Origin: Leptolyngbyaceae cyanobacterium JSC-12
GTDB lineage: Bacteria > Cyanobacteriota > Cyanobacteriia > Leptolyngbyales > Leptolyngbyaceae
Reading direction: 5' to 3'
DNA: 64,000 bases
Assembly: GCA_000309945.1 (NCBI GenBank)
Contig: CM001633.1
Span: 4,939,793 to 5,003,792, forward strand
Shown in pieces: positions 10,290 to 46,002 of this stretch (positions are counted from its first letter, which is position 1; every line of letters starts with the position of its first letter). Both the position numbers and the translations under genes were made by a program. The notes under the pieces are model-generated. The model ran no database searches and was not told where the DNA came from. It was given only the letters and a program-made list of their open reading frames with translations.

Positions 10290-10815
10290 TGAACTACCCC
10301 GCTGCAAGCAGACGGGGTATCAGAATCAAAAAAGAGTAAGCTGCTCATCTCGGTGTAGCTTGAGATATTCGTTACCCTGATTTTTGACGTAGTTCGCAAT
10401 CATCCCTTCATCCCCGTGTTTCCCAACTGTACTTGCAAAATAGCCATCACTCCAAAACTCTCCACCCCATAGCTTTTGCTTCACCTGAGGACAACGCCGA
10501 AACACTTCCCTTGCGGTCAAACTCTTGATCATTTTGACCAATTTGGTCACGCTGTATGTCGGCACCGATTGGACTAAAAAGTGCACATGGTCTTTGTCTA
10601 CACCGATTTCTATAAATTTAATCTCGTAGCGTTTCTCAATCTCCAGGCAAACTTCTCGCAAAACTTCATCGACCTGTTCATCAAACACAGCCCGCCGATA
10701 CTTTGCTGGAAACACAAGGTGGTATAGCAAAACCGTAACGTTATGACTTTTGTGGATGTACTCGCTCATCCCTGCATTTTACGCTGCAGAGCAGCGGGGA
10801 ATTGACCCATAGAGA
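10290..10815 (-). mobile_element. IS200-like element, copy 1, inserted in hemN
   Basis: About 526 bp, nearly all shared with copy 2 at 45471 (common sequence 10290-10822). The ends carry subterminal hairpins rather than terminal inverted repeats: CCCCG...CGGGG near 10297-10318 and CGCTGC-AGA-GCAGCG near 10782-10796, as expected for single-strand HUH transposition. No target duplication is needed to explain the hemN reading frame. The right end is uncertain by ~7 bp because both copies are followed by TTAAAAA. Confidence 0.88.
10326..10769 (-). CDS. tnpA: IS200/IS605-family transposase (Y1 HUH, TnpA-like)
   Basis: A 147-residue Y1 transposase. The HUH metal motif is in DKDHVHFLVQS and the catalytic Tyr is probably in MIANYVKNQGNEYLK near the C-terminus. 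It is identical in protein sequence to the copy at 45506-45949. No tnpB accompanies it, so the element is of the IS200 single-gene type. It is antisense to the host gene hemN. Confidence 0.93.
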   Translation of the reverse strand: MSEYIHKSHNVTVLLYHLVFPAKYRRAVFDEQVDEVLREVCLEIEKRYEIKFIEIGVDKDHVHFLVQSVPTYSVTKLVKMIKSLTAREVFRRCPQVKQKLWGGEFWSDGYFASTVGKHGDEGMIANYVKNQGNEYLKLHRDEQLTLF

Positions 10816-35852: not shown

Positions 35853-35903
35853 AAGGGGAACCGGGAATTGGAGCACGCTAGTGTAGGTGAGAGTAACCAA
35901 CAG

Positions 35904-36749
35904 ATGAGTCGGTCACTGAATCAGCAAATTCAAGAGTTTTATGATGCGTCATCAGGGCTGTGGGAGCAAATTTGGGGTGAACATATGCATCACGGCTACT
36001 ATGGCGCAGATGGGATGCTAGAGAAAGATCGCCGGGAAGCCCAAATTGACTTGATTGAGGAATTGTTGCAGTGGGCAGATGTGTCACAAGCAACCAGAAT
36101 TCTGGATGTGGGATGTGGCATTGGGGGCAGTAGCCTTTACTTGGCAGCTAGATTCAAAGCAGATGTTACAGGGATTACTCTCAGTCCTGTGCAGGCACAA
36201 AGAGCCAGCGATCGCGCCAAATTTGCAGGGTTATCCCAATCTACTTGCTTCCTGGTTGCTAATGCCTTGAATATGCCGTTTTTGGATAATTCGTTTGATG
36301 TTGTCTGGTCATTGGAGAGTGGGGAACACATGCCAGACAAGACGAAGTTCATGCAGGAACTTTATCGGGTGTTGAAACCAGGCGGCAAATTGCTAGTGGT
36401 AACGTGGTGCTGCCGTCCAACCGATCAGCAGCCATTAACGGAAGACGAACAAAAGCATTTAGAAGAGATTTATCGCGTCTATTGTTTGCCCTATGTAATC
36501 TCGCTGCCAGAGTATGAACAAATTGCTCAATCTCTCCCTCTGAAAAACATCCGTACTGCTGACTGGTCTAAAGCGGTTGCTCCTTTCTGGGATGTTGTAA
36601 TTGATTCGGCATTCACCCCAATAGCGATCGTGAGGTTGTTATTCTCTGGTTGGAAAACGATCAAAGCAGCGTTGTCGCTTAATTTAATGAAACATGGCTA
36701 TGAACGTGGCTTAATCCGCTTCGGGCTATTGTGTGCCATGAAGGAATGA
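35904..36749 (+). CDS. Gamma-tocopherol methyltransferase-like SAM methyltransferase
   Basis: A 281-residue class I methyltransferase from the ATG at 35904 with AGGTGAG 13 bp upstream. SAM motif I is ILDVGCGIGGSSLYLA, the post-I acidic region is VTGITLSPVQAQRA, and VLKPGGKLLVVTWC is motif III. The N-terminal WGEHMHHGYY and the LSLNLMKHGYERGLIRFGL tail match cyanobacterial and plant gamma-tocopherol methyltransferases (VTE4 type), which make alpha-tocopherol. Related MPBQ or sterol-type methyltransferases cannot be excluded. Confidence 0.82.
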   Translation: MSRSLNQQIQEFYDASSGLWEQIWGEHMHHGYYGADGMLEKDRREAQIDLIEELLQWADVSQATRILDVGCGIGGSSLYLAARFKADVTGITLSPVQAQRASDRAKFAGLSQSTCFLVANALNMPFLDNSFDVVWSLESGEHMPDKTKFMQELYRVLKPGGKLLVVTWCCRPTDQQPLTEDEQKHLEEIYRVYCLPYVISLPEYEQIAQSLPLKNIRTADWSKAVAPFWDVVIDSAFTPIAIVRLLFSGWKTIKAALSLNLMKHGYERGLIRFGLLCAMKE

Positions 36750-36828
36750 ATCTTGTAGAACTCTGGTATTGCCAATAAGAACAACCCTCATTGCAGCCGA
36801 CGAGATGGCAGCAATCTTGGAAACAACT

Positions 36829-36873
36829 TTTAGATGGTGTGACTTTAGATAGTGTGATTTTAGATGATGTGAT
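36829..36873. repeat. Three-copy 15-bp tandem repeat
   Basis: Three 15-bp units of the form TTTAGATGGTGTGAC lie in tandem, differing at a few positions. They are intergenic, in the ~500-bp gap between the methyltransferase and the kinase-like gene. In one frame they encode LDGVT/LDSVI/LDDVI, so a relic of a pentapeptide-like coding repeat is possible. Confidence 0.6.
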
Positions 36874-37028
36874 TGTTTTTCATATTGATCGGCGTTGTTG
36901 CATGATTGAGAAGAAGAGCAAATCTTCCCTTGTGGGAACTTGCGATTAGGCTTTGACTTCGTAACTATCTAGTTTGTGTATGGGCGTTGTTAGACTGCGA
37001 TCGCTTGGTTCAAAGAATTCATAGGCCT

Positions 37029-37084
37029 GGTGCGCTCCCAAAAACCTATCGGTGGAGTGGTAGGTTTTGCTAGGGGAACGCACC
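37029..37084. repeat. Dispersed hairpin repeat
   Basis: Imperfect inverted repeat with outer arms GGTGCG/CGCACC and inner arms AAACCTA/TAGGTTT. The text GTGCG...GGGAACGCACCCTAC is of a type scattered through many cyanobacterial genomes. No protein is encoded. Confidence 0.55.
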
Positions 37085-37106
37085 CTACAGTGATGGAGAT
37101 CACACT

Positions 37107-37200
37107 ATAGCGGTTCCTCATCGCCTAGGTTGTAGTAGGCTCCTCACTAAACAAGCTTTATAGGCATCTCTATGTCTCTCACACTATTGAGAACCGCTAT
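37107..37200. mobile_element. MITE-like element, 94 bp
   Basis: The ends are inverted repeats, ATAGCGGTTCCTCA at the left and TGAGAACCGCTAT at the right, differing by one extra base. The inside is AT-rich with no coding potential. TATAGCGGTT ends recur in cyanobacterial IS elements and their non-autonomous derivatives; the parent element is not in the window. Confidence 0.55.
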
Positions 37201-37266
37201 CCAGAGGAGCGATTTCCCCAATACTTTGAGAATACTATACTCAAACATTTGAGGCTACGAAGCTCC

Positions 37267-38250
37267 GTGAAAATTAGACTTTCAAGACGACGCTTTTTGT
37301 ATGCAACCAGTAGCGCGATCGCGGGTTCAGCCCTAACCTCACCTGCCGTTGCTGGAGCTGCCAATCTGCCTGCTGCCAGTGCCACAGCCGAGACAACGGC
37401 AGCGGCGATTGCCACAGCCGCCGCTATAAGTGCCACTATTCCTGTGATCAGTGAACTGCCAAACTACAGTTCGTTATTGGAGAACGCCATCTGTGACTTC
37501 GGAGCACATATTCGAACCCGTCAAACGTCCGTCGCTATGGCTATCCGGCTTATAAACATCTTCTTGGATAGAATTGAGAACGGTAAGATTTCCTCGGATA
37601 ACCTAGATGAGCTTAAAAAGTACGTCCAGATAGTCGAAAAGGAAACCCTAGAAACAGTAAATATAATCAACGACAGCCTTAGTTTATACTATGCAGCGAC
37701 TGATCGCGATCCGAGACAAGAGTCAGTTAACTTAGCAACCTGGATGAGTGATTTTCTGAAATCTCAAGCTGCTATCCACGCCACCCAACGCCAGGAGTTT
37801 GAGCATAGTCCAGATCGCTCCATTTTGCACACTCAGATTGCCGATTCATTGCCAACCGTGCTGATTAGCGAGAACACTCTCGATGCACTGCTTAGACTAC
37901 TCCTCAATCATTTCCTCATACTGGATCCACAACAACCTGTTACCCTGTCCGCCCATCTAGTCCAAAACCAAACCAGTGCTTCCCAATCTGAATTGCAACC
38001 TCAGTCACAGCCCCAGTTGGAGTTGAGTGTTAGCACTTCTGGAGTTATAGCGTTTGAGGGATTTCAGCGTCCATTTGACCCAGCGTGGTGTCAAGCCCCG
38101 TTCAGTGAATATTGCTCCATTCGGTTTCCAGATTTGATGGCAAAGGTGCAACTGCTCGCTAAGAATTTGCAGGCAACCGCTCAGCTAGCGAGTAGCGAAG
38201 ATCAAACTAGCATTACGGTAACGATTCCTTTGCAAATTGTGTCGGTTTAG
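37267..38250 (+). CDS. Kinase-like protein with twin-arginine-type leader (degenerate DHp/HATPase)
   Basis: About 327 residues from a GTG; a TTG at 37249 would add six. The start has a twin-arginine-like leader, RLSRRRFLYATSSAIAGSAL ending SPAVAGA, then an Ala/Thr-rich stretch. Residues ~75-140 resemble a DHp helix, but the HExRTP box reads AHIRTRQTS: the phosphoacceptor His position is Ala and the Pro is Arg. Later text (TLDALLRLLLNHFL) resembles the start of a HATPase domain without its N-box Asn-Ala, and no DxG or GxGLG box is found. It cannot autophosphorylate in the usual way. Other readings: a scaffold, or a decaying kinase whose N-terminus changed. Function unknown. Confidence 0.6.
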   Translation: MKIRLSRRRFLYATSSAIAGSALTSPAVAGAANLPAASATAETTAAAIATAAAISATIPVISELPNYSSLLENAICDFGAHIRTRQTSVAMAIRLINIFLDRIENGKISSDNLDELKKYVQIVEKETLETVNIINDSLSLYYAATDRDPRQESVNLATWMSDFLKSQAAIHATQRQEFEHSPDRSILHTQIADSLPTVLISENTLDALLRLLLNHFLILDPQQPVTLSAHLVQNQTSASQSELQPQSQPQLELSVSTSGVIAFEGFQRPFDPAWCQAPFSEYCSIRFPDLMAKVQLLAKNLQATAQLASSEDQTSITVTIPLQIVSV

Positions 38251-38398
38251 TGCGATCGCCCTTGGTGAATTGGGTTGAAGCACGAAACCCAATATCCACG
38301 TTTATAACTTCACGTTTAAAGAAACGTCAGTTCGGGATCAGAAAAGGGCGGAACAGATAGGCTGAGAATAGCAAAACTCAATCAGCCTCAAGCGCCCT

Positions 38399-38545
38399 AT
38401 GTTTAGTCTAGAAGCCTTGTTTTGTCAGGTTGATGACTTCTGCAAGCAATTTGAACCCTAGTGGCAACAGCATTTGTTGAGCCGTGGAGTCCACCAGCGT
38501 CAGCGAGAGCGCGGGTTGTGTACGAGCGAAATCATGACCCTCCTG
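38399..38545 (+). pseudogene. IS982-family transposase, N-terminal relic
   Basis: From the ATG at 38399 the frame reads MFSLEALFCQVDDFCKQFEP, a stop (TAG) at codon 21, then WQQHLLSRGV and LCTSEIMTLL. This is the conserved N-terminus of IS982-type transposases. The remaining ~240 codons are gone, cut at about 38545 where TPR-like coding sequence on the other strand begins. A hairpin with ATTGGGTT/AACCCAAT arms lies upstream near 38270-38293. Confidence 0.75.
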
Positions 38546-38719
38546 ACGCCCTCCTGGGTGCCTACCTGCAGATTTGAGAGCTTCATCCCCCTGTTGCATC
38601 AATTGCTGGATCGAGCCAGATTGGGCAATCGAAGGTGAGGGAGCGATCGCAACAGACACTGGGAACATTACTGCCAGCAGTATCATTAGAACTGGCTCGG
38701 AAGCTTTAGGAAGCATCAT
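38408..38719 (-). pseudogene. Exported TPR-type protein, truncated by IS982 relic
   Basis: The 103-residue frame starts with a signal peptide (VLMILLAVMFPVSVAIAPSP, then SIAQSG) and SIQQLMQQGDEALKSAG, which looks like the first helix of a TPR array. After that the sequence becomes meaningless because it is antisense to the IS982 relic. The true gene was cut at about 38546-38575. Only ~50 residues of the original protein remain. Confidence 0.6.
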
Positions 38720-38778
38720 GATAAGAATAAGGAATTCAGTGAAACACAGGTCTTGACTACGGATTTCTGGTGACCTGA

Positions 38779-39378
38779 TTAACTCCTAGCTCTGGGTTGC
38801 CAAGGGGTTAAAACCGTAGCCACGATCGCAAACCCAACCAAGAGCGCCAGCAAAAGACCAAACAACCCAGAAATCCGTATAGCAATATCAACCTGGATAC
38901 CGCGCAGATTCATTAAACCGACGATACAGGTTGCCAGTCCGAGAATGAAAGCCAGAATTAAAAACGGTCTTTCTCCTTGTGCTTTTTCCCAGCCAATCTT
39001 CACTGAAAGGATTACACCCCATCCAAAATAGACATTGCCTAACCCTGGGTTGAACTGGAAAAAAGGCAGCGGGTTGGCAGAACCCGCAATATAAGTGAAT
39101 GATGGTTGTCCGTTGAGCAAAGATAAAATGCTTGACCAAATGATCAAAGAACCCACAACCATCGCATAAACCCGGCTAAACAACATGCCAACTCTAACCA
39201 AAAGTACGCTAATGACAATAGGAATTATGATTAGCAGTATGAACAAACGAAGCCAGATTAAAGAAGCAAATGGGTCTATCTTTTGCGCTAACTCAGCTTG
39301 GGCCTGTTTGACCCTTTCGTAATGTTCAGGGCTAGCACGAAGATAAGGCGATCGCTTGGTTTTGGGTAGTTGAGGCAT
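38779..39378 (-). CDS. Multi-pass membrane protein, unknown
   Basis: A 199-residue protein with five or so hydrophobic segments, starting near residue 40 (LFILLIIIPIVISVLLVRVG) after a soluble N-terminus (SPEHYERVKQAQAELAQK). It ends VATVLTPWQPRARS. I recognise no family. A GGAGAT Shine-Dalgarno lies 6-11 bp upstream. It is downstream of the damaged protease gene on the same strand with 36 bp between. Confidence 0.65.
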   Translation of the reverse strand: MPQLPKTKRSPYLRASPEHYERVKQAQAELAQKIDPFASLIWLRLFILLIIIPIVISVLLVRVGMLFSRVYAMVVGSLIIWSSILSLLNGQPSFTYIAGSANPLPFFQFNPGLGNVYFGWGVILSVKIGWEKAQGERPFLILAFILGLATCIVGLMNLRGIQVDIAIRISGLFGLLLALLVGFAIVATVLTPWQPRARS

Positions 39379-39414
39379 ACTACATCTCCTTAACTTTGCT
39401 AATTCAAAAGGGTG

Positions 39415-41070
39415 CTACGCTCTAGCGATCGCCATTGCCCGCCGCACTGCCGCATCCGCGTTCACAAACCCATATCCTGTAAAAAGGTCATAGCCAGGAG
39501 TACCCACATCAATCGCCGTTTCTGACAAGATTTGCCGCACCTGAGCCGCTGTCAGAGTCGGATTTGCACTCCACACCAGGGACGCAACCCCTGCGACATT
39601 GGGTGCAGCAGAAGACGTTCCATCAAAAGGTGAAGCGTTGGTCGTATATGTATATTTAGGTGGAATAGTTCTGTTTCCCGATCCCTCTGCTTTAGTCGTA
39701 ATCACTTCCGCTGGACCCATCAGTGTGATTCCGCTCCCATAGTTTGAGTAAGGAATCCGATCTCCCATCTTCTGTGATTTGCCATTTCGGTCTTGTTTAC
39801 CCCAAGAGGCACCAACAGCAATGACATTTAGGTTATCAGATGCTAGGACGCTGGGCGTAGGAAGCGTAGATTGGGAGTCATTGCCGCTTGAAATCACAAA
39901 TAAAATTCGGTCTTGATATTGCCTAACAAGATTGCGAAAATCTTCCGAGACCGGACTAGTGAAACTCATATTAATGATCAGCCTCTGCCCACTGCCACCG
40001 ACAGGTTGAGTTGCTTCCGCCCATTGTCTGATCGCCTGCTCCGACGAAATATCACCTCTGTTCCCTCCCAGCACATCCGCAGAAATGACAGGCGATACCC
40101 AGTTAATCCCACTCATGCCCGTTCCATTATTACTTGCAGCAGCAATAATGCCCAAAACAGCAGTTCCATGTCCAAATAAATCTGGTTTGTTCTTTGGCAC
40201 ATCGAAAAAGTCATCGGCTGAGTCGTTCCCTGGTGTAGTATGCATTGCGTTACTTCGGAAATCGGGATGAGATTTTCCCTCATTTGTAAGAGCAATCCCG
40301 CCATCTTGAACACCTATTAGCACACTATTTGATCCTGTTGTGAATCGCCATGCGGTGTGAACGCCCATCATGTGTAAGTTCCATTGCCTAGTAAATAGCG
40401 GATCACTAGGATTTACAGTCAGCCCTGCATTAATGAAACCTGTTGCGAGCGATTCGTTTTGAAAGACAATTTTCTCAATACCTTCTAACAGAATTTCGCG
40501 ACCATCACTGAGTAGTAGCTGGTCAAACAGGCGATCGCCGTTGCCAGGATTGTATCGCACACCGCCAGTTCCATTTGCCGTAACTGGGTTCCATCGGACA
40601 GAACTTGAACTAAATGCAGACAGATCCAAGCGATCAAATAATCCCGCACCATAATCTACATTGCCATTCCCAGAAAAGACATAGCGACGATAGCCAGGAG
40701 TGAGGGTAAACTGATCTGCCCCCAGGGTGCCAGCCCGAATCAGCGTTGGGGATTGCAGTTGTTCCAGAACAGATAGGTTGTTATCTGACACGGACAGGTT
40801 GTAATTGGTCTCAACACCGTCAAAGGAAAAAACTCGCAGCCTGTAAGTTCCTGGATCGAGGATGGTGCGAATTGATTCTTCCGCAGTGCCCGCTTGATAA
40901 GAACGGGTGACAATCTGATTCACCTGATTGAAAAGTTCTAAACCAGCATCGGCGCGCAGTCCATTCAGTCGCAGACTAACATTTCGGCGCTCCTTCAGGT
41001 CAAATCGGTAATAATCATCCCGGTCAACCTCCCCCAATCGCCTGAGAAACCGTCGTCGTGCGCCCATCAT
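39415..41070 (-). CDS. S8 (subtilisin-like) serine peptidase, 5'-damaged
   Basis: The 551-residue frame has a pre-peptidase-C domain (VDRDDYYRFDLKERRNVSL to YRLRVFSFDGVETNYNLSVS), a beta-rich spacer, and a complete S8 domain: Asp in SVLIGVQDGGIAL, His in LFGHGTAVLGIIA, Asn in VISSGND, Ser in DGTSSAAPNVAGVASLV. Its apparent first residues (MMGARRRFLRRLG) come from the wrong frame. One base in a C5 run near 41030 (plus strand) separates them from the true continuation GTYDGRTTTVSQAIG. The frame upstream of that is itself cut at about 41166. No signal peptide remains, so secretion is doubtful; functionally this is probably a pseudogene with an intact catalytic domain. Confidence 0.75.
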   Translation of the reverse strand: MMGARRRFLRRLGEVDRDDYYRFDLKERRNVSLRLNGLRADAGLELFNQVNQIVTRSYQAGTAEESIRTILDPGTYRLRVFSFDGVETNYNLSVSDNNLSVLEQLQSPTLIRAGTLGADQFTLTPGYRRYVFSGNGNVDYGAGLFDRLDLSAFSSSSVRWNPVTANGTGGVRYNPGNGDRLFDQLLLSDGREILLEGIEKIVFQNESLATGFINAGLTVNPSDPLFTRQWNLHMMGVHTAWRFTTGSNSVLIGVQDGGIALTNEGKSHPDFRSNAMHTTPGNDSADDFFDVPKNKPDLFGHGTAVLGIIAAASNNGTGMSGINWVSPVISADVLGGNRGDISSEQAIRQWAEATQPVGGSGQRLIINMSFTSPVSEDFRNLVRQYQDRILFVISSGNDSQSTLPTPSVLASDNLNVIAVGASWGKQDRNGKSQKMGDRIPYSNYGSGITLMGPAEVITTKAEGSGNRTIPPKYTYTTNASPFDGTSSAAPNVAGVASLVWSANPTLTAAQVRQILSETAIDVGTPGYDLFTGYGFVNADAAVRRAMAIARA

Positions 41071-42263: not shown

Positions 42264-43820
42264 ATGATCCCTGAACCAGAGATCGCGCCTGAAGGTAACA
42301 TTCTCATCATCGATGACTCACCCGAGAATCTGCGGATGTTGTCCCAAACGTTGATGACTTACGGGTATATCGTTCGGTGTGTTACTAACGGCTCAATGGC
42401 ATTGACCAGCATTCAACATGCGCCTCCAGATCTGATCTTACTCGACATTCGAATGCCAGGTCTGGATGGCTATCAAGTGTGTCAACAGTTGAAGCGAAAC
42501 CCAGAAACCCAAGATATTCCAGTTATTTTTCTGAGTGTTCTGGAAGAGGTTAAAGATATTGTGAAAGCTTTTGAGGTGGGTGGAGTTGATTACATCACTA
42601 AACCATTTCAGACAGAAGAAGTCTTAGCTCGAATTCAAAACCAATTAACAATTCAAACGTTGAGGAAACAATTATCGCTTCAAAATCAGTACTTGCTTCA
42701 CGAGATTAATGAACGCAAAAAGTTTGAGCAAGCGTTGTGTCAAGAAATTCAGCATCGTCTCTTAATTGAAACTTCTCTTCAAGATGTTAAAAATGTGGCA
42801 GAAGCCGCTGATTATACTAAACGCGAACTTTTAGCTCAAATGAGTCATGAGTTACGCACTCCACTCAATATTATTTTAGGGTTCACATCCTTAATGCAAG
42901 GCGAAGATACACTGACTCCCTCACAGCAAGAGTATCTAGCCACGGTGAATGACAGTGCCCAGCATTTACTTAAGCTTATCAACAAAATTTTGTCGATCGC
43001 TCACACGGCATCAAGTCAACCAGTCCTACTTGAACGAGAATTTGACTTGCACCAGCTTTTGGCATTGGTGATATCCCTATGGCAAACAAAAACCCTGGCA
43101 AAAGGATTACAGTTTGAATTTTATCAAGCTCCTGATCTTCCTCGTTTCATTCAAGCAGATGAAAACAAGTTTCGCCAAATCTTAATGAATTTGCTGGATG
43201 CTGCGCTCCAGGCAACTGAAACAGGTGCGATTGTAGTCAAAATTGACGTTGAAAATAAAGATTCTCTTGACTCTAATGGTATGTTCAGACTAGTTTTTGA
43301 AATCCATCAAATGGAGACTGGATACAGTTCAAATAAACTAGATATAAGTTTTCAGTCATTTTCACAAACTGCCTTCAGTCAATCATCCACACAGCAACTA
43401 GGAATGAGTTTGCTGTTAGTTCGCCAGTTTGCTCAGGTAATGGGCGGTGATGTTTTTTTTGAAAGTGATTCTGCAAAGGGAACGATCGCCTGCGTGCACC
43501 TTTTAGTCAAACTAGCCGACTCGTCACCAGGGCTGACTCAGCGTGACATACAATTGTCATCTTATCCGACTCAATCCACGCCTGAGGAGATCTTTCTATC
43601 TATGGAAGCATTACAGCATGTGATGTCAGGTGATTGGCTAGCACAACTTCATCAAGCCGCGGTAAAAGGGTTTGATCAACAAGTACTTCAGCTTATCCAA
43701 AAAATTCCGGCTAACTTTGCTTCACTTGCAACAACATTGGAAGTATGGGCGCGCAATTTTCAATTTGATCAAATTGTTGCAGTCATTCGACGCACTGCTC
43801 GCTTTCAACAATTGCCATGA
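42264..43820 (+). CDS. REC-led histidine-kinase-like protein with degenerate ATPase domain
   Basis: A 518-residue soluble protein. A REC domain (residues ~10-130) has the acidic pair IIDDSPENL, phospho-Asp in LILLDIRMPGLDGYQV and Lys in YITKPFQTEE. A coiled-coil then leads to a DHp with an intact His box (AQMSHELRTPLNIILG). The ATP-binding part is damaged: the N-box is NLLDAALQAT (Asn replaced), the DxGxG box reads MTETGYSS-like text, and the GxGLGL box is QQLGMSLLLV. It should therefore bind ATP poorly or not at all. A ~65-residue helical C-terminus (LAQLHQAAVKGFDQQVLQLI) also occurs on the hybrid kinase at 57341. It may act as a phospho-relay or inhibitor. Confidence 0.85.
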   Translation: MIPEPEIAPEGNILIIDDSPENLRMLSQTLMTYGYIVRCVTNGSMALTSIQHAPPDLILLDIRMPGLDGYQVCQQLKRNPETQDIPVIFLSVLEEVKDIVKAFEVGGVDYITKPFQTEEVLARIQNQLTIQTLRKQLSLQNQYLLHEINERKKFEQALCQEIQHRLLIETSLQDVKNVAEAADYTKRELLAQMSHELRTPLNIILGFTSLMQGEDTLTPSQQEYLATVNDSAQHLLKLINKILSIAHTASSQPVLLEREFDLHQLLALVISLWQTKTLAKGLQFEFYQAPDLPRFIQADENKFRQILMNLLDAALQATETGAIVVKIDVENKDSLDSNGMFRLVFEIHQMETGYSSNKLDISFQSFSQTAFSQSSTQQLGMSLLLVRQFAQVMGGDVFFESDSAKGTIACVHLLVKLADSSPGLTQRDIQLSSYPTQSTPEEIFLSMEALQHVMSGDWLAQLHQAAVKGFDQQVLQLIQKIPANFASLATTLEVWARNFQFDQIVAVIRRTARFQQLP

Positions 43821-45470: not shown

Positions 45471-46002
45471 GAACTACCCCGCTGCAAGCAGACGGGGTAT
45501 CAGAATCAAAAAAGAGTAAGCTGCTCATCTCGGTGTAGCTTGAGATATTCGTTACCCTGATTTTTGACGTAGTTCGCAATCATCCCTTCATCCCCGTGTT
45601 TCCCAACTGTACTTGCAAAATAGCCATCACTCCAAAACTCTCCACCCCATAGCTTTTGCTTCACCTGAGGACAACGCCGAAACACTTCCCTTGCGGTCAA
45701 ACTCTTGATCATTTTGACCAATTTGGTCACGCTGTATGTCGGCACCGATTGGACTAAAAAGTGCACATGGTCTTTGTCTACACCGATTTCTATAAATTTA
45801 ATCTCGTAGCGTTTCTCAATCTCCAGGCAAACTTCTCGCAAAACTTCATCGACCTGTTCATCAAACACAGCCCGCCGATACTTTGCTGGAAACACAAGGT
45901 GGTATAGCAAAACCGTAACGTTATGACTTTTGTGGATGTACTCGCTCATCCCTGCATTTTACGCTGCAGAGCAGCGGGGAATTGACCCATAGAGATTAAA
46001 AA
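45471..46002 (-). mobile_element. IS200-like element, copy 2
   Basis: Same sequence as the hemN insertion over about 533 bp; the transposase is identical. Its left end touches the right terminal repeat of the DDE-type IS exactly, so it inserted at that boundary. Subterminal hairpins as in copy 1. Confidence 0.88.
45506..45949 (-). CDS. tnpA: IS200/IS605-family transposase (Y1 HUH, TnpA-like), second copy
   Basis: Protein identical to the one at 10326-10769, with the HUH motif (DHVHFLVQS) and candidate catalytic Tyr (IANYVKNQG). Identity between the copies means recent movement or gene conversion. No tnpB lies beside it. Confidence 0.93.
   Translation of the reverse strand: MSEYIHKSHNVTVLLYHLVFPAKYRRAVFDEQVDEVLREVCLEIEKRYEIKFIEIGVDKDHVHFLVQSVPTYSVTKLVKMIKSLTAREVFRRCPQVKQKLWGGEFWSDGYFASTVGKHGDEGMIANYVKNQGNEYLKLHRDEQLTLF

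Follow-up and report, generated by a model that had tools for sequence, protein, structure and literature searches.

A candidate Tat-exported pseudo-histidine kinase derived from a GAF-domain kinase in Leptolyngbyaceae cyanobacterium JSC-12

A gene in a stretch of 64,000 nucleotides from Leptolyngbyaceae cyanobacterium JSC-12 (contig CM001633.1; hereafter the window) joins a twin-arginine leader to a body that resembles a histidine kinase, and raises the question of whether a kinase scaffold has been put to use outside the cytoplasm or whether a leader and a decayed kinase merely happen to adjoin. Known pseudo-histidine kinases are regulators inside the cell, and a search of titles and openings of abstracts, most subscription papers lying beyond its reach, listed no paper on a histidine-kinase fold exported by Tat. 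A preliminary description, made from the sequence alone, had read the product as a degenerate DHp/HATPase core that lacks ATP boxes and carries a Tat-type leader, and this is borne out by the alignment, the matches to kinases and the loss of the N, G1 and G2 boxes (Table 1). GTG37267 was chosen as the start because it aligns with the ATG of a counterpart in Leptolyngbya sp. ULC077bin1 (MKIRLSRRRFL / MKFKLSRRRFL); a longer start at TTG37249 is possible. One promoter-like and one terminator-like site were found around the gene, both on the minus strand and in no excess over shuffles, and no Rfam family was found in 36700-39400.

Table 1. Features of the gene and its product, in coordinates of the window
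Feature	Coordinates	Strand	Basis or remark
GAGG, possible ribosome-binding site 12 nt ahead of GTG37267	37251..37254	+	read by eye
Whole gene, 327 aa, GTG start: Tat-type leader and degenerate DHp-CA kinase core	37267..38250	+	ORF where the preliminary description placed it; start via alignment
Leader, residues 1-31	37267..37359	+	charge, hydrophobicity, cleavage-like end, likeness to counterpart
SRRRFL, residues 6-11 (Tat consensus SRRxFLK)	37282..37299	+	alignment with counterpart; consensus per PMC7317946 (accessible part)
Ala-rich segment, residues 37-74; hydrophobic at 42-65, possible second membrane helix	37375..37488	+	alignment, hydrophobicity
DHp-like helical hairpin, residues 75-145	37489..37701	+	alignment, AlphaFold2 model, structure match
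Phospho-acceptor position, Ala80	37504..37506	+	His in 53/55 related kinase segments; Tyr in counterpart
CA (HATPase_c-like) domain, residues 150-325	37714..38241	+	model, structure matches, Pfam match of counterpart
N box remnant LLLNHF	37897..37914	+	Asn (53/55) replaced by His215; His in counterpart too
G1 box remnant, residues 255-261	38029..38049	+	Asn (55/55) replaced by Thr257; Glu of GVEI (45/55) deleted
Lost G2 box, residues 287-291	38125..38139	+	TGLGL (52-55/55 per column) replaced by FPDLM

The protein by itself matched no Pfam family, and its kinase ancestry is seen in matches to kinase frames of JSC-12 and of related genomes; over DHp and CA, its identity to 55 related kinases has a maximum of 27% and a median of 23%. 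The counterpart passes the cut-off of HATPase_c (42.9 bits; cut-off 26.4) and falls below that of HisKA (15.2 bits; cut-off 26.9). Residues were counted per column over 55 related kinase segments, the duplicates L036-L040, L042, L045, L046, L049 and L063 being left out, and alignment A3 holds 52 of 57 rows (without L021, L027, L043, L062 and L066). The His box had been described as changed to AHIRTR; the box is indeed altered, but the His in it is not the acceptor, as alignment on the RT places Ala80 at the acceptor position and His81 where all 55 kinase segments have Glu and the counterpart has Asp. The Lys of the N box (51 of 55) is Ile218, just beyond the remnant, and is Arg in the counterpart, which also has Ser at the Asn position of G1 and SGSNL at the position of TGLGL. 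The loss of the ATP boxes is further advanced in the JSC-12 protein than in its counterpart. Among the relatives, L021 and L023 (727-aa frames) have Arg at the acceptor (SRELRTP), another loss of the acceptor His.

Structure prediction returned a DHp-CA kinase fold rather than one unrelated to kinases, as judged with Foldseek and VIA-align. The AlphaFold2 model built from 52 rows (pLDDT 77.9, pTM 0.69), 50 of which are live kinases that steer a model of this confidence, consists of a DHp hairpin (residues 64-102 and 110-145) and a CA domain. Foldseek searches initiated using this model found 250 PDB chains at E<=0.001, the top match being the kinase region of RetS from Pseudomonas (PDB identifier 6dk8_E; E 8.9e-10). 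The best VIA-align match has a Z of 17.3 with a rmsd of 2.4 over 156 residues, and DivL (PDB identifier 4q20_B) could be aligned with a Z of 15.9 and a rmsd of 4.5 over 215 residues. A model from the two members alone has a mean pLDDT of 43.1 and was kept out of the fold search; in it the DHp and CA helices and four of seven strands lie in the same places as in the 52-row model.

The leader has the build of a Tat signal. Its n-region has a net charge of +5 counted to the last Arg of SRRRFL, its h-region is weakly hydrophobic (maximum KD15 1.11, or 1.24 over a slightly longer span), and its end is cleavage-like, with AVA/AGA at residues 27-31 (AxA type). The accessible part of PMC7317946 gives SRRxFLK, lower hydrophobicity and AxA as features of Tat signals, and a basic c-region residue (Sec avoidance) as frequent and dispensable; this leader has none. 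Against the Tat-signal family TIGR01409 (cut-off 16.7 bits) the protein alone scored 14.8 bits and the leader, in the genome search, 16.4 bits, or 17.4 bits with neighbours in frame, where it was flagged above the cut-off; it is fifth by E-value among the 17 TIGR01409 matches of its genome. The leader of the counterpart is not among the matches listed at E<=10 in the genome search, nor does it appear among the 25 listed of 30 matches in a second search with this family. Maximum KD15 of the h-region is 1.17 in the counterpart and 1.20-2.07 in eight other Tat-type leaders of JSC-12, the starts of which were picked by eye and the weakest of which differs little from our leader. The leader is similar to other Tat-type leaders of both genomes; those of JSC-12 (L090, L093, L110) likewise combine an SRRxF[LI] motif with a weakly hydrophobic stretch, though several of the genome's Tat-type leaders end, by eye, in a lipobox-like Cys, whereas this one ends in AxA. 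Each of the two genomes encodes one TatC (216.8 bits in JSC-12 and 222.4 bits in that of the counterpart).

Within the window, the motif RRx[FLIMV][LIVMFK] occurs in the first 60 residues of 5 of the 72 ORFs of at least 100 aa, and it is followed by a hydrophobic stretch only in the gene at 37267-38250. A subtilase with a pre-peptidase domain (39418-41070, minus strand), for example, starts with MMGARRRFL and has no hydrophobic stretch, which makes it a chance twin-arginine motif. Chance occurrence as the whole story was rejected for the present leader, in which SRRRFL comes together with a hydrophobic stretch and AxA and is conserved in another genus. Judged from these features, export by the Tat pathway seems likely. 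The accessible part of PMC12341915 gives signal rules that separate lumen from periplasm for Sec-exported proteins, with Tat-signal baits used for the periplasm; because these rules are for Sec-exported proteins, they do not decide between lumen and periplasm for a Tat substrate.

The point at which the leader joins the kinase lies at the end of a GAF domain. BLASTP aligns the protein ungapped over a first stretch from residue 41 (AETTAAAIATAAAISATIPVISELPNYSSLLENAICDFGAHIRT versus ANQCAIALRQARLFQAAQAQVKELEKLNRLKDDFLSTVSHELRT in L121), residue 41 corresponding to residue 502 of its available 786 aa, within the last eight residues of its GAF_2 match (379-509), and from there onward the protein aligns with the GAF-final or signalling helix of live kinases. 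Cyanobacterial GAF-GAF-HisKA-HATPase_c sensor kinases (L121, L122 and L038, and L032 of JSC-12 itself) have a homologous DHp-CA core from residue 41 to near the C-terminus; of 55 related kinase segments, 52-55 keep the residue at each of the H, N and G2 columns, whereas the JSC-12 protein is changed at them. All four kinases of which the domains were checked have the GAF-GAF-HisKA-HATPase architecture, three of them with a PAS match above the cut-off as well, and a leader is absent from their available parts. Since the kinase similarity begins at residue 41, the end of the GAF domain, the leader appears to have taken the place of the sensor domains. On the alignment, the segment that follows is best read as the old signalling helix, turned Ala-rich after this replacement.

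The search for an orthologue with the same leader-kinase join found the one in Leptolyngbya sp. ULC077bin1 (G019; QBMH01000169.1), which has the same leader and architecture and 34% identity to the JSC-12 protein. It is the only relative obtained from 84,980 species genomes scanned with two short exact peptide patterns (46 stretches), a scan past which diverged members would slip. Protein matches at E<=1e-12 occur in 2 of 42 genomes of the family, which are all those searched of the order, namely in JSC-12 and G019. At E<=1e-11 over the class, 6 of 388 genomes have matches, of which only those in JSC-12 and G019 begin at query residue 1; the other four begin at residues 40, 40, 60 and 47, inside long kinase-like frames of 860-1233 aa. 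A profile of residues 1-147 matched in 170 of the 388 genomes at E<=0.001 and, among the matches listed (at most 10 candidates scored per genome), only these two begin before position 18. In this sample the pairing of leader and dead kinase is therefore rare, with 2 of 388 genomes of the class. The first 160 residues of seven short kinase frames obtained from the searches of the class (L134-L140), read by eye, have no SRRxFL-type motif with a hydrophobic stretch before the DHp; HELR[ST]P is present in five of them, and L138 and L140 end ahead of that box. A mobile origin on plasmids was also considered and rejected, as a tblastn search of 72,556 plasmid records with the protein gave no match.

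Comparison of the two members shows that the leader is the part best kept. Codon-aligned identity is 57% in leader residues 1-36 (35 codons), 21% in the Ala-rich linker (38 codons) and 32% in the kinase-like part (237 codons), and identical columns number 22 of 40 in the leader, 20 of 67 in the DHp and 48 of 166 in the CA domain. In the leader region a similarity of 75.8% over 62 bases is seen even in DNA. Among 17 leaders the two are reciprocal best matches, with a score of 87 and a next best score of 38 both ways; this score is the second among 136 pairs, and the parts beyond the RR motif score 40, the fifth among 136 pairs. Since neither leader has a closer match than the other, the gene at 37267-38250 is, on sequence grounds, more than a chance join of leader and kinase. 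The kinase part of the counterpart (residues 76-323) scores 116.1 bits to a kinase of G032 versus 112.6 bits to the JSC-12 protein, over nearly full length, with an identity of 33% to live kinases versus about 29% to the JSC-12 protein. It is thus no nearer to the JSC-12 protein than to live kinases, which would fit a fast-changing copy in JSC-12, and the case for orthology is therefore made chiefly by the leader, the losses common to both proteins and the tree. In the tree (239 columns; rooted for drawing only) the two proteins are set apart from 55 kinase rows with a support of 96/98, the program warning of long branches and the bootstrap not having settled; their branches are long, with 10 (JSC-12) and 2.2 (counterpart) changes per column, and the group has two members only.

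The gene begins beyond a break in synteny. As far as the end of a methyltransferase gene (35868-36749), the upstream sequence is shared with G002 and with two contigs of G001, and synteny with G002 ends at 36752, at the methyltransferase end, beyond which G002 has other genes. No copy of the gene was found in two other genomes of its genus (one of them 84% complete). The contig of the counterpart, where the flanking genes are presumably those of a sugar kinase and rsmI, shares no neighbours with the JSC-12 locus, kinase-like frames aside. The break and the lack of common neighbours therefore point to a stand-alone gene of patchy presence. A dispersed repeat of 258 bp (38315-38572) lies 64 bp past the stop of the gene and overlaps a 103-aa ORF (38408-38719, minus strand); it has a 98% identical chromosomal copy (G000:C1:4518632-4518876) and two 81-84% matches in G001. 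No inverted ends were found on the repeat, nor any inverted repeats in 38250-38640 or 36960-37110. The intergenic sequence 36982-37089 is matched twice in G002 (71-72%), and G001 and G019 gave no match; an 11-base word is inverted within it (37029-37039 and 37074-37084, with one mismatch), and 19 of 100 window shuffles also give two matches. Elsewhere in the window, two ORFs of 147 aa (10329-10769 and 45509-45949, both on the minus strand) are identical over the compared 34-residue stretch and are probably two copies of one insertion element, presumably IS200-like.

We lean towards the hypothesis of a Tat-exported pseudo-histidine kinase that arose from a GAF kinase and binds its partners in the periplasm or in the lumen. 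A GAF-GAF-HisKA-HATPase kinase would have been severed at the last helix of its GAF domain and its C-terminal DHp-CA half put behind a twin-arginine signal peptide, giving a small gene. Its product would fold in the cytoplasm and be moved in the folded state by the Tat translocase, the leader being cleaved near residue 31. What would remain outside the cytoplasm is a helical DHp-CA body, probably a dimer. In that ATP-free location, the acceptor His and the ATP boxes would no longer have been maintained, while the fold and the leader were kept. The protein would most likely act in the periplasm (or thylakoid lumen) as a scaffold or binding protein; that it is a folded binding module of this kind, needing neither ATP nor phosphate, is a proposal for and against which we see the evidence in even balance.

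The second hydrophobic stretch (residues 42-65, or 42-70 in the counterpart) leaves room for a different topology, in which the leader stays uncleaved as the first of two membrane helices and the Ala-rich segment forms the other, so that the dead kinase core hangs from a membrane hairpin into the cytoplasm as in two-helix sensor kinases. There it could be a decoy or partner of live GAF kinases via DHp heterodimers, in the style of RetS and GacS, or bind a response regulator in the style of DivL. The hydrophobicity of the stretch is about that of a marginal membrane helix in both members (KD19 1.65 in JSC-12 and 1.77 in the counterpart), the four domain-checked relatives are GAF kinases, of an architecture that is presumably cytoplasmic as a rule, and the pseudo-kinases RetS and DivL are among the structural neighbours; the Ala or Tyr at the acceptor site likewise matches DivL proteins (PMC4211667, accessible part). 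We nevertheless consider this hairpin unlikely, since the twin arginines are kept in both members and a first stretch as weak as this (maximum KD15 1.11 and 1.17) is more in keeping with Tat than with a membrane anchor. The second stretch, moreover, corresponds in the alignment to a helix of GAF-domain kinases, and in the JSC-12 protein it is followed, by eye, by about 17 residues without Lys or Arg. Export as an ordinary Sec substrate, with incidental twin arginines, would accord with the c-region lacking a basic residue and with the overlap of Tat and Sec signals (PMC7317946, accessible part), but is very improbable given that SRRRFL is identical in two proteins otherwise about one-third identical and that the h-region is poorly hydrophobic.

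A further alternative is decay, with the JSC-12 copy becoming a pseudogene and its product useless. The very long branch (10 changes per column), the greater number of boxes lost than in the counterpart, the position beyond the synteny break and next to a dispersed repeat, and the absence from the two other genomes of the genus (one only 84% complete) would all agree with it. Against these stand a frame that has stayed open while its identity to the counterpart fell to about 33%, for which 327 stop-free codons under drift to saturation would have a p of about 1.4e-7 (codons treated as independent), third codon positions that are the most changed in all parts (identity 0.46/0.57/0.38 over the three positions in the kinase-like part), and a well-kept leader, so that we regard decay as improbable. 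The preliminary description had offered a pseudogene with a leader joined by chance as one possibility, which is at odds with a join kept in two genera and with a leader that is the most conserved part. Its other suggestion, a scaffold repurposed from a kinase, gains support as the likeliest kind of explanation.

Comparable pseudo-kinases work inside the cell. RetS, the top structural match, is a kinase that inhibits GacS via its DHp domain, and it is part of a membrane sensor and is not known to have a twin-arginine leader; the kinase parts of DivL and ChrS are cytoplasmic. In DivL of Caulobacter the acceptor site is occupied by Tyr (Ala in Magnetospirillum) while the fold is kept, and the protein needs no kinase activity to sense a phosphorylated regulator (PMC4211667, accessible part). 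DivL and the JSC-12 protein thus have in common a non-His acceptor, Ala or Tyr in DivL also, and a DHp-CA fold. However, DivL keeps the N, G1, F and G2 boxes and its PAS domains (PMC4211667, accessible part), whereas the JSC-12 protein has lost the N, G1 and G2 boxes and its 327 aa are filled by leader, linker and DHp-CA, with no PAS-type sensor domain. DivL likely acts in the cytoplasm, because the response regulator DivK is its binding partner. Catalytically dead ChrS promotes heme tolerance, and ChrS-HrrS heterodimers are detected by two-hybrid (PMC9491836, accessible part).

The present finding is thus a variant within pseudo-kinases such as DivL. If our hypothesis is true, the DHp-CA fold can be retained for uses other than phosphate chemistry, and a signalling domain can gain a new compartment by the exchange of its sensor for a signal peptide; if exported, the kinase fold would be at work where ATP is absent. 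A REC-HisKA-HATPase hybrid encoded 4 kb away (42264-43820, plus strand) keeps its H box (SHELRTPL), while NLLDAALQ, EIHQMETGY and QLGMSLLLV, judged by eye, seem to be degenerate forms of the N, G1 and G2 boxes, and it is possibly a second kinase without ATPase function.
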